Shown in pieces: positions 39,106 to 45,273 of a DNA stretch of 64,000 bases. The notes under the pieces are model-generated. The model ran no database searches. It was not told the DNA's origin and saw only the letters and a program-made list of their open reading frames with translations. The position numbers and the translations under genes were made by a program. How positions within the stretch are numbered: position 1 is the first letter of the stretch; each line of letters starts with the position of its first letter. This DNA comes from Acinetobacter pittii (lineage in GTDB: Bacteria; Pseudomonadota; Gammaproteobacteria; Pseudomonadales; Moraxellaceae), in contig NZ_CP139286.1 of the NCBI RefSeq assembly GCF_034067285.1, positions 3,162,001-3,226,000 of the forward strand, read 5' to 3'.

Positions 39106-39134
39106 ATGACATATAAGTGTCACATTCCTGTCAT
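39106..39134 (+). promoter_or_regulatory. Candidate PHO box before tatABC
   Basis: Three 7-mers on an 11-bp period: ATGACAT, GTGTCAC, CTGTCAT, the last identical to the PhoB consensus repeat. A TATAAA -10-like hexamer follows 13 bp later, and tatA starts 44 bp after the box. Confidence 0.7.
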
Positions 39135-39178
39135 GGCAACCTGTTGATATAAAGCAAACTGAAAAGAGGTATAAGATC

Positions 39179-39397
39179 ATGGCTGGTTTATCTATTTGGC
39201 ATGTCGTTATTTTTGCAATTGTCGTTATTTTATTATTCGGTACATCTAAATTAAAAAATATCGGTAAAGATGTTGGTGGTGCAGTAAAAGACTTTAAAAA
39301 ATCAGTTCGTGAAGAAGACGAAACTGCAACGCTTAATACGCCACGTACAATTGATGCCCAAGTCAAAACTCCTGACAGCACATCAGTAAAAAGCTAA
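39179..39397 (+). CDS. tatA: TatA, twin-arginine translocase pore subunit
   Basis: A 72-residue pore-forming component of the Sec-independent Tat system. The N-terminal membrane helix ([18 protein letters not shown], about 3-20) leads into the conserved FG hinge (FGTSKLKN) and an amphipathic helix ([20 protein letters not shown]). A short polar tail follows. AGGT precedes the ATG at 39179. It heads tatABC behind a PHO-like box, which is an unusual control for a housekeeping translocase. Confidence 0.95.
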
Positions 39398-39409
39398 AGG
39401 TTTTCGACC

Positions 39410-39847
39410 ATGCTTGATGTAGGAATGACAGAGCTACTCTGCTTTGCAATTATTGCAATTTTAGTTTTAGGTCCAGATAAACTACCGGAAGCTGCACGTT
39501 TTGCTGGCCGATGGTATGTTCGCCTAAAACGTTATATTACCAATTTGCAAAATGAGATTGATCAAGAGTTGCGTCTTTCTGAGTTTCGAAAAGAAATGCA
39601 AGAAGAGCTCAACCGCATTGAAGCACTAGAACGAAAAGTTCAACAACAACTTGAAGAAATCCAAAAACAAAATATTTCTGAAAATATAGATAAGACTGAG
39701 GCAGTTAAAAAGATGCCTCAACCTATTCGGATATGTCTTCCTATAACAGGCCATTATAAAGTTCCATATGTGGAAAAATTTGTGCCTTTCACATCATCAA
39801 CTGATATTTCAGAGACATCACCTGTTAAATTGAAGATTGCCGTATGA
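39410..39847 (+). CDS. tatB: TatB, twin-arginine translocase receptor subunit
   Basis: A 145-residue partner of TatC in the substrate receptor. The N-terminal membrane helix MLDVGMTELLCFAIIAILVLG is followed by the conserved PDKLPEAAR motif and a long amphipathic/coiled-coil helix (about 45-105, with LEEIQKQNIS). Lacking the FG hinge tail pattern of TatA but having LGPDKLPE marks it as TatB. It lies 12 bp after tatA and its stop overlaps the tatC start by four bases, so tatABC is one operon. Confidence 0.93.
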   Translation: MLDVGMTELLCFAIIAILVLGPDKLPEAARFAGRWYVRLKRYITNLQNEIDQELRLSEFRKEMQEELNRIEALERKVQQQLEEIQKQNISENIDKTEAVKKMPQPIRICLPITGHYKVPYVEKFVPFTSSTDISETSPVKLKIAV

Positions 39848-42764: not shown

Positions 42765-42799
42765 TTAAAGCTGGCCAAGGTCAGCTTTAATGTTTTTTA
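42765..42799 (+). terminator. Terminator after the first PhoX gene
   Basis: The stem TTAAAGCTGGCC/GGTCAGCTTTAA (one G-T pair, two-base loop) is followed by TGTTTTTTAC. Confidence 0.85.
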
Positions 42800-42848
42800 C
42801 AGTCGACTTTCACTTTTTATGAAAAAAATTATAGAACATTTCATTAAC

Positions 42849-42877
42849 TTATCATCAAAACGTCAAAGCCTCGTCAC
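42849..42877 (+). promoter_or_regulatory. Candidate PHO box before the second PhoX gene
   Basis: TTATCAT, ACGTCAA and TCGTCAC lie on an 11-bp period, 62 bp before the start of the gene. It is weaker than the two upstream boxes, but the phasing is the same. Confidence 0.55.
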
Positions 42878-42939
42878 ATTCACAAACTAAGCTCATGAAG
42901 AATTTTAGAACAATCTCTTTATTTACTTAGGAATTTCCC

Positions 42940-45273
42940 ATGACAGAGCTGACGCCATATCATGAAGACCAAGAACTGGACAATAATACTTCTGACAATA
43001 CCCACTTTCGCGACATTTTAGAACAACACATCAGTCGCCGTAGTTTAATTACAAAAGCAGCAAGCGGTGCGGTAGCACTAACTTTAGCCTCTACCTTAAC
43101 AGGCTGTAATGATAGTGACGATGACTCAGGTTCAAACAATGGTGAGACTACACCAGTAGATCCAAATAAAAAACCAGAAAAATTAACTTTTACCGCAGTT
43201 GCGAAAAACCATAACGATATTGTGACTGTACCTGAAGGTTATGAAGCGAATGTCATTTATGCTTTGGGTGATTCAATCAACCCAAGAGTTGGAGATTGGG
43301 ATGACAATAATATTCCATCAGGCCCAAGCTTCCAGTTCCGTTCAGGGGATTGTCATGACGGCATGCATTTCTTTGGTTTAAATACTTCAACAAAAAACTT
43401 TGATGAAAGTATTTCAGCTGAAGGCTTATTGGTGATGAATCACGAATATATCAACCAAACGTTCCTTCACCCCAAAGGCCCAACAAAAGTTGATGGACGC
43501 CGCCCTGAAGATGAAGTCATTCGTGAAACCAATGCACATGGGGTTTCTATTGTTCACATCAAAAAAGATGCAGCAACTCAAAAAGTAACAATTGATAAAA
43601 ACTCTATTTTTAATCGTCGTATTACCGCTTCTACAGTTATGGAGTTTGCAGGTGCAGCAGCTGGTTCTGGCTTGCTTGCAACTCGCTTCTCACCTGCTGG
43701 ACGTCAAACACGTGGCACTCATAATAACTGCGGTAATGGTTATACGCCTTGGGGCACATACTTAACTACTGAAGAAAACTTTATTGGTTATTTCCAACGT
43801 TCAGGTAGTGATGAATATGCACGTACAGATGCAGAAAAAATTGCATTAAAACGTTATGGTTTAGGTGTTAAAAAAGATGAACCTTATTTGTATGAGAAAG
43901 ATGAAAAAGGTGCTCCTAAAAAAGATAAAGATGGCAATATCATTTACTTAAAAGATAAAAATGGTGAGTTCATCCCTAACGTTGATGAACAAGGGCGCCA
44001 AATTTATTTAGGCACAAGTTCACGTTACGGCTGGGAAACAGCAATTGGTCAAGTAGAGTCACAAGACTTGTATGATCGCTGGAATGCTGATGTAAAAACT
44101 GCACAAGCTACCCAAGATTATCGTAACGGTCCAAATACATTCGGGTGGATGGTTGAGATTGATCCATTTGATGGACGTCAAAATCCAGTTAAACGTACCT
44201 CATTAGGTCGTTTTGCACATGAAGATAGTGCTTGCCGTGCTGTAGTAGGTCAGCCATTAGCGTTTTATATGGGTGATGATTCTCGCGGTGAGTACATCTA
44301 TAAGTTTGTCTCTACCGCAGTGTGGGATGCCAAAGATGTAAATCGTGGCTATACAGCTGGCGACAAATATATGAACGCGGGTAAATTGTATGTTGCCAAA
44401 TTTAATAACGATGGTACAGGTCAATGGATTGAGCTTGCATATGGTAAAAATGGCTTAAATGAAAGTAATTCGACTTACCCATTTAAATCTCAAGCAGACG
44501 TTGCCACATTTGCACGTTTGGCAGGTGATGCAGTCGGTGCTACAAAAATGGACCGTCCAGAATGGTGTACGGTTAACCCAGTAAACGGCGAAGTCTATGT
44601 CACCCTAACCAACAACTCAAATCGTGGTAAAGATTACGCGACCGATGCTGTAAACCCACGTAACTACACAGACCTCTACAACGGCACTAAAGAGCAAAAG
44701 GGTAACATTAACGGTCACATTATCCGCTTTAAAGAAACTGATGACAAAACCACTGCCGAAACCTTCAAGTGGGATATTTATCTGTTTGGTGCAGAAGCAT
44801 CGATGGCTTCAAACATCAACTTGTCTGGCCTAACCGACAATAATGATTTGTCATCTCCAGACGGGATGTGGTTTGACCCACGTGGCGTACTTTGGATTCA
44901 GACAGATGATGGTGCTTACACCGATGTTACTAACTGTATGATGCTTGCTGCACTACCAGGCCAAATTGGTGATGGTGGTACTGCAACTACGTCAAATGGC
45001 CAACAAACGCTAGTCGGTGCTAAAGTTACAGACTCAACACTACGCCGTTTCTTGGTTGGACCAAAGCAATGTGAAATTACAGGCATTGCCATGACACCTG
45101 ACCACAAAGCAATCTTTATTAATGTTCAACACCCTGGTGAAGACTCGAAAAGTTACTCGACACCAGACAGTAACTGGCCTGCAACCCAGAAAGATCCAAG
45201 CAATAAAACTGCACGTCCACGTTCAGCAACTGTGGTGATTACCCGTAAAGATGGCGGTGTGATCGCGGGTTAA
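42940..45273 (+). CDS. Tat-exported PhoX-family phosphatase lipoprotein, long
   Basis: A 777-residue PhoX-type phosphatase. After a polar N-terminus, the twin-arginine motif SRRSLITK (Arg33-Arg34) and a lipobox (TLTGC, Cys56) are followed by the acidic linker NDSDDDSG. The catalytic-domain signature NCGNGYTPWGTYLTTEENF (near residue 266) is closer to canonical PhoX than that of its neighbour. Later segments SSPDGMWFDPRGVLWIQTDD and FINVQHPGED match the beta-propeller blades of the family. It is separated from the first PhoX by a terminator and carries its own PHO-like box. Role: release of phosphate at the outer membrane when phosphate is scarce (inferred). Confidence 0.88.
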   Translation: MTELTPYHEDQELDNNTSDNTHFRDILEQHISRRSLITKAASGAVALTLASTLTGCNDSDDDSGSNNGETTPVDPNKKPEKLTFTAVAKNHNDIVTVPEGYEANVIYALGDSINPRVGDWDDNNIPSGPSFQFRSGDCHDGMHFFGLNTSTKNFDESISAEGLLVMNHEYINQTFLHPKGPTKVDGRRPEDEVIRETNAHGVSIVHIKKDAATQKVTIDKNSIFNRRITASTVMEFAGAAAGSGLLATRFSPAGRQTRGTHNNCGNGYTPWGTYLTTEENFIGYFQRSGSDEYARTDAEKIALKRYGLGVKKDEPYLYEKDEKGAPKKDKDGNIIYLKDKNGEFIPNVDEQGRQIYLGTSSRYGWETAIGQVESQDLYDRWNADVKTAQATQDYRNGPNTFGWMVEIDPFDGRQNPVKRTSLGRFAHEDSACRAVVGQPLAFYMGDDSRGEYIYKFVSTAVWDAKDVNRGYTAGDKYMNAGKLYVAKFNNDGTGQWIELAYGKNGLNESNSTYPFKSQADVATFARLAGDAVGATKMDRPEWCTVNPVNGEVYVTLTNNSNRGKDYATDAVNPRNYTDLYNGTKEQKGNINGHIIRFKETDDKTTAETFKWDIYLFGAEASMASNINLSGLTDNNDLSSPDGMWFDPRGVLWIQTDDGAYTDVTNCMMLAALPGQIGDGGTATTSNGQQTLVGAKVTDSTLRRFLVGPKQCEITGIAMTPDHKAIFINVQHPGEDSKSYSTPDSNWPATQKDPSNKTARPRSATVVITRKDGGVIAG

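Follow-up and report, generated by a model that had tools for sequence, protein, structure and literature searches.

tatABC and two phoX genes of Acinetobacter as a probable Pho-regulon module

The tat-phoX locus of Acinetobacter pittii

The stretch of DNA analyzed here (64 kb; referred to as the window, with coordinates counted from its first letter) lies inside a single 3.69-Mb contig of an Acinetobacter pittii genome (G000). It contains tatABC, the genes of a twin-arginine translocation (Tat) system, followed on the same strand by two PhoX-family genes, here called short and long phoX. Phased repeats resembling binding sites of the phosphate regulator PhoB (PHO-type boxes) precede tatA and each phoX gene, and the genes very probably form one module of the Pho regulon. 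The features are as follows, with box scores given out of 18 as defined below.

39095-39134, + strand: PHO-type box of tatABC, four 7-mers (CTGTCTT/ATGACAT/GTGTCAC/CTGTCAT), score 16
39145-39150, + strand: predicted -10 of tatA, TGATAT, a weak fit, 10 bp past the box
39179-39397, + strand: tatA; Pfam TatA_B_E, TIGR01411 over cut-off
39410-39847, + strand: tatB; Pfam TatA_B_E, TIGR01410 over cut-off
39844-40614, + strand: tatC; Pfam TatC, TIGR00945 over cut-off
40695-40734, + strand: PHO-type box of short phoX, four 7-mers (CTGTCTT/GTGACTT/ATGTAAG/GTGTCAT), score 15
40745-40750, + strand: predicted -10 of short phoX, TAGAAT, 10 bp past the box
40790-42742, + strand: short PhoX, a divergent PhoX-family protein of 650 aa; Pfam PhoX, twin-arginine (RR) signal with lipobox
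42849-42877, + strand: PHO-type box of long phoX, three 7-mers (TTATCAT/ACGTCAA/TCGTCAC), score 15
42888-42893, + strand: predicted -10 of long phoX, TAAGCT, 10 bp past the box
42940-45273, + strand: long PhoX, a canonical PhoX of 777 aa; Pfam PhoX, RR signal with lipobox

A genome-wide profile search found TatC in single copy. The Pfam PhoX domain (cut-off 24 bits) was matched at 430.6 bits by long PhoX and at 68.4 bits by short PhoX. Long PhoX aligned with a solved PhoX at E 1e-95 and short PhoX weakly, at E 0.03; the similarity between the two is only distant. In alignments of short PhoX judged by eye, the PhoX motifs C..SPW, EE, GR.SHE, MGDD, SPD and QHPG appear to be retained. The original prediction, made from the sequence of the window, had assigned twin-arginine motifs to the cargo genes. 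Indeed, both translations, read by eye, begin with a twin arginine, a hydrophobic stretch and a lipobox cysteine (TRREVLK...LAGC in short PhoX, SRRSLI...LTGC in long PhoX), and the TIGR01409 model also matches long PhoX. No RNA element was detected between 38900 and 46200 with Rfam at gathering score.

PHO-type boxes precede tatA and both phoX genes

In E. coli, PhoB-dependent promoters such as those of phoA and pstS carry CTGTCAT-like 7-mers at an 11-bp period that end about 10 bp before the -10 hexamer, with no need for a -35 element. We scored this layout with up to 15 points for matches to three consecutive TGTCA cores spaced 11 bp apart. Up to 3 more points were given for the T, A and T of a hexamer that follows the last 7-mer at the E. 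coli distance of 10 bp. The original prediction described three 7-mers per promoter; the 11-bp period holds throughout and long phoX has three units, but tatA and short phoX have four. The predicted distance of 44-62 bp to the start codon was confirmed, the last unit lying 44, 55 and 62 bp before the starts of tatA, short phoX and long phoX, respectively. Plausible -10 elements had been proposed for two promoters. They are present, but the count was too low, as all three boxes have a hexamer exactly 10 bp downstream.

Sites scoring at least 15 occur at five positions on the two strands of the window, corresponding to four sites, with a chance expectation of 0.1 per window (both strands, 40 dinucleotide shuffles). 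In this comparison with random sites, set beforehand as the refutation test, the boxes of tatA, short phoX and long phoX are three of the four best sites, and the prediction was not refuted. A score of 14 was reached at four positions: three are shifted or opposite-strand readings of the four sites, and one (21439) lies within an open reading frame (ORF) of 714 aa. Note that the region upstream of the AEC gene scores 14 because the tat box is read from the opposite strand. In the same genome, pstS, phoB and plc2 scored 15, plc1 13 and phoU 10, compared to 11 for lgt, 11 for rdgB and 10 for TANGO2 as controls. The three boxes are thus equal to or above pstS and phoB. We discarded phoU as a positive control: it scores only 10 and lies outside the pst operon in this genome. 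A simple sigma-70 scan, which can miss sites, found no promoter match at any of the three boxes, and a constitutive tatA promoter at the box was set aside on the same result.

The highest-scoring PHO-type site in the 64 kb (score 17; about 4076-4121, - strand) precedes an operon for a GT4 glycosyltransferase and a PAP2 phosphatase (2190-4070, - strand), a candidate phosphate-controlled glycolipid operon for membrane remodelling.

Boxes and gene order are conserved in the genus

We surveyed 119 Acinetobacter genomes, in which 130 of 133 TatC places were examined (G048 C14 and two fragments, G048 C65 and one in G070, were left out; L001, a duplicate of L002, was not counted). This yielded 107 primary tat loci, one per genome. 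AEC or RdgB is encoded upstream in 100 of them, and phoX lies downstream of tatC on the + strand in 101, within 600 bp in 100 of these; in four of the six loci without downstream phoX the stretch ends too early. TANGO2 or lgt was present in 68 of the 74 stretches reaching more than 3 kb beyond tatC.

The tatA upstream regions of the primary loci scored at least 14 in 97/107 cases, with a minimum of 12. Where the phoX start fell inside the fetched stretch, this threshold was reached by 34/35 short phoX and 49/67 long phoX upstream regions. In contrast, no secondary tat operon (0/23) and no control upstream region (0/131; lgt 0/67, TANGO2 0/64) scored 14 or more, and shuffled tatA upstream sequences did so in 0.14 percent of 2140 cases. 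Among the species-named genomes (80 loci, two without tatA), 70/78 tatA upstream regions scored at least 14, including A. baylyi, A. calcoaceticus, A. nosocomialis, A. lwoffii and A. junii. Pairs of TGTCA-like cores in the 107 primary upstream regions were concentrated at spacings of 11 (153 pairs) and 22 (122 pairs), with 31 at spacing 5 and 35 at 16; every other spacing between 6 and 25 had 1 to 8 pairs. Information content rose from 0.14 bits per column in the far flank to 1.19 in the box across 105 aligned tatA upstream regions (L086 and L114, whose best site is off register, were omitted here and kept in the score counts). One check proposed with the original prediction was whether other Acinetobacter genomes keep the boxes together with the tat-phoX order; both are conserved genus-wide.

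Directly 3' of the tat box, at 39138-39151, the sequence CTGTTGA(G/T)ATA equals the box in its conservation across the genus, although it resembles a -10 only poorly, and may represent a special promoter element.

Tat and PhoX are absent together

TatC was found in 108 and PhoX in 107 of the 119 genomes. All 11 TatC-less genomes also lack PhoX, and the sole genome with TatC and without PhoX, namely G094, carries two divergent TatC but lacks the primary locus (Fisher p 1e-14, uncorrected). Eight of the 11 are at least 90 percent complete with at most 5 percent contamination; the poor assemblies are G030 (65 percent complete), G111 (64 percent) and G026 (9 percent contamination). PhoU, used as a control, is retained in 10 of the 11.

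Flanking stretches were obtained for 11 module-less genomes (ten TatC-less genomes and G094; G111 gave no lgt match), of which L181 and L184 were uninformative. At the nine informative empty sites the neighbours are present on both sides and tatABC and phoX are missing, leaving a gap of 73 to 1667 bp; TANGO2 is also missing in two and AEC in one. A tblastn search of these nine sites for the module turned up nothing beyond short matches with E values of 0.7 or higher. When presence and absence are mapped on an Lgt tree of 29 chosen genomes, 11 of them module-less, at least seven label changes are required, six of them forced by well supported branches. Some of these changes may be regains, and G030 may reflect an assembly gap. 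In two further genomes, G044 and G101, PhoX is encoded elsewhere with its own box (14 in both) and tat is retained with a box (15 and 14).

Other candidate cargo

Two phospholipase C proteins of the A. pittii genome, both with RR signals, are likely further Tat cargo. The family exceeded the cut-off in 50 of the 119 genomes and in none of the 11 TatC-less ones (Fisher p 0.002, uncorrected, with one below-cut-off match included in the computation). TIGR01409 gave three matches in the A. pittii genome at E up to 10, namely long PhoX, phospholipase C 2 and one in a 7386-aa frame, which we took as chance. CopA is a classic Tat cargo and is present in most TatC-less genomes. It was rejected as a retained Tat substrate: the signal is Sec-like, without an RR start in 17/17 N-termini (the 12 best-scoring loci among 112 genomes over cut-off, the A. 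pittii protein, and four selected ones from three TatC-less genomes and G094).

Published expression data

Published RNA-seq of A. baumannii, as far as the available portions of the reports go, fits the phosphate response expected from the original prediction. In strain ATCC 17978 at 50 µM phosphate, TAT-dependent export and phospholipase genes were up; the main text of this report, as available, does not mention PhoX by name (PMC11828411). In A. baumannii with cerebrospinal fluid (CSF), log2 changes were -1.50 for PstS, -1.56 for TatB, -1.82 for TatC, -2.39 for an alkaline phosphatase whose locus tag is next to that of TatC, and -1.99 for a 2-aminoethylphosphonate binding protein (PMC7910304). 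Among the titles and abstract openings retrieved from mostly open-access literature, none stated PHO control of tat in Acinetobacter.

Discussion

We consider it highly probable that tatABC and the two PhoX-family genes constitute one Pho-regulon module with three promoters. The window scan, the conservation in the genus and the published RNA-seq support the original prediction of a phosphate-starvation module in which the translocase is raised alongside its substrates. At low phosphate, PhoR would phosphorylate PhoB, as expected from knowledge of the family. PhoB would then occupy the phased repeats, which would stand in for a -35 element, and recruit polymerase to the hexamer 10 bp downstream, in keeping with the layout of the boxes. 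Tat produced from the first promoter would export the folded twin-arginine PhoX proteins, whose lipoboxes suggest lipid-anchored envelope enzymes that would free phosphate from organic esters. Since this is the only Tat in the genome, export capacity would rise together with the main cargo. We infer Pho control, and the linkage to phosphate-scavenging cargo, from the boxes and the gene order. On this evidence, the Acinetobacter Tat resembles a phosphate-scavenging module more than a general-purpose machine.

Several observations weigh against this interpretation. Binding of PhoB to the tat and phoX boxes is something we infer from sequence. Because the score was designed with the boxes in view and takes its spacing from E. 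coli, the window test is to some extent circular; the comparisons with pstS and phoB and across the genus are less so. TGATAT, the hexamer before tatA, fits a -10 poorly. With the same score, phoU and plc1 reach only 10 and 13, the plc1 and plc2 sites sit 187 and 214 bp upstream of the ORF starts, and 10/107 tatA and 18/67 long phoX upstream regions remain under 14. (The plc1 and plc2 distances would imply long leaders or other start sites.) Adjacency alone could explain the joint loss. Moreover, tatABC was reported to be 4.4-9.6-fold higher in exponential than in stationary lysogeny broth (LB) culture, and its deletion reduced host-cell adhesion after growth in LB while sparing growth (PMC12687288). 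Tat therefore works without evident starvation too. In its available text, this study contains no words starting with "phosph", and no significant candidates came out of the SignalP search that its authors ran.

The LB expression and the adhesion defect (PMC12687288) are what would be expected if tatABC encoded a normal housekeeping Tat that happens to adjoin phoX, its promoter being constitutive or growth-phase-dependent and only tuned by PhoB; the conserved CTGTTGAGATA element beside the box could likewise serve another factor. We regard this as unlikely: Tat is missing from 11/119 genomes of the genus, eight of them of good quality, CopA has no RR start in any of the 17 N-termini, and tatB, tatC, the next-tag phosphatase and pstS change together in the accessible CSF data (PMC7910304). 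The sigma-70 scan, which showed no promoter at the tatA box, is weak evidence in the same direction. Binding of the boxes by another OmpR-family regulator instead of PhoB is very improbable. Although the PhoB model matches 21 times in the genome, once over its cut-off, the same layout precedes the genome's own pstS and phoB, and Tat and phosphate genes respond jointly in the published data as available (PMC11828411, PMC7910304).

It is also conceivable, if rather doubtful, that Tat and PhoX are co-lost by a single deletion of adjacent genes with no functional tie. Neighbouring tat and phoX are the rule in the genus, and both are missing from one place at the nine informative empty sites. However, no TatC-less genome retains PhoX elsewhere, although at least G044 and G101 show that PhoX can lie elsewhere, with Tat kept; that tat is still boxed in these two genomes counts against adjacency alone. 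The unlinked phospholipase C is likewise absent from 11/11 TatC-less genomes. The repeated label changes on the Lgt tree (at least seven) point the same way, but alone do not separate the two ideas.

Tat is usually regarded as a constitutive general pathway, and the original prediction called a Pho-controlled Tat unusual. This stands insofar as the module governs the only Tat present, but there is a precedent. In B. subtilis, a Tat lies beside the gene for a secreted phosphodiesterase, and phoD, tatAd and tatCd are all induced by phosphate starvation (PMC3068169). TatAdCd is, however, a second, minimal TatAC beside the constitutive TatAyCy in a Gram-positive bacterium, with PhoD as cargo (PMC3068169 and general knowledge). 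In the Gram-negative A. pittii, TatABC is the sole Tat, with PhoX and no separate housekeeping Tat. It would thus work like TatAdCd, yet falls outside that family. The claim of unusualness is further tempered by the finding that Tat is not confined to starvation (PMC12687288, as available). What appears new relative to the precedent is PHO-type control of a sole TatABC, and its co-loss with PhoX.

Other systems share parts of the arrangement. The familiar E. coli PhoB promoters have the same layout, but drive uptake and phosphatase genes and no translocase. In the available account of Campylobacter jejuni, PhoX is Tat-exported under a phosphate two-component system; control is described there for PhoX only, and Tat carries over a dozen other proteins (PMC3197622). 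In Pseudomonas putida BIRD-1, proteins labelled TatA/D/G, encoded near PhoX, were up at low phosphate and absent in a phoBR mutant (PMC5082522). Two of these are annotated as general secretion pathway K and G, and so may be parts of type II secretion, not Tat.

Secondary tat operons in the genus adjoin other genes. In L120-L122 and L124-L129 (and L123), tatABC without PHO boxes has as neighbours apparent ABC genes for sulfonate uptake, a gene for a sigma-54 activator and a monooxygenase-like gene. An NMT1-type binding protein with an RR signal is encoded near the L123 operon. In L131, L132 and L134, divergent tatABC is followed by genes for a microcin-like small peptide, a cholesterol-oxidase-family FAD protein with an RR signal, and an HlyD-like adaptor (peptide and adaptor named by eye). 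In four more loci the secondary tatABC adjoins a single RR protein: a lipoprotein without family assignment in L115 and L119, a dioxygenase-like lipoprotein slightly below the Pfam cut-off in L117, and an amidase in L130.

In the order as a whole, nearly all genomes have Tat, whether or not PhoX is present: among 105 genomes, TatC occurs in 99 and PhoX in 60 (both 59, TatC only 40, PhoX only 1, neither 5; cross-counted by eye). Adjacency as an order-wide rule was rejected, as Tat and phoX lie within 10 kb on one contig in just 5/59 genomes with both (A. pittii, G143, G125, G154 and G169; by eye). Of the four other cases, only G125 has a site of 14 before tatA; the G169 contig starts too near tatC to show tatA. 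In G125, from another family of the order and with three TatC, some 4 kb separate this tatABC (L203) from two phoX genes, and the PHO-type site lies roughly 0.1 kb before tatA, possibly an independent PHO-boxed case as an extra Tat. Among Moraxellaceae relatives outside the genus, 2/3 have tatABC directly behind hisI/hisE, and no PHO-type site of at least 14 was detected in 9-kb stretches of the three. Because these two relatives have a hisI-hisE-linked tatABC with no detected box, the PHO-boxed arrangement was probably derived in Acinetobacter, by relocation or replacement. In a TatC tree of 61 chosen rows, primary and secondary copies are intermixed, and there are long branches.

A broader reading, which we consider about evenly balanced, is that the Acinetobacter Tat is no longer housekeeping. 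The hisIE-linked tatABC would have been moved, or replaced by a PHO-controlled PhoX cassette that is kept or discarded whole, and the other tat operons would be separate cassettes with their own RR proteins (sulfonate-uptake, cholesterol-oxidase-like, amidase), so that Tat would evolve as cargo-bound nutrient modules. If the sole Tat of most Acinetobacter belongs to a phosphate-starvation module, Tat phenotypes of the genus such as the adhesion defect (PMC12687288) would need re-reading with phosphate supply in view, and Tat cargo could be sought among Pho-regulon genes. The repeated clean losses would then offer natural experiments on the conditions under which a bacterium can do without Tat.

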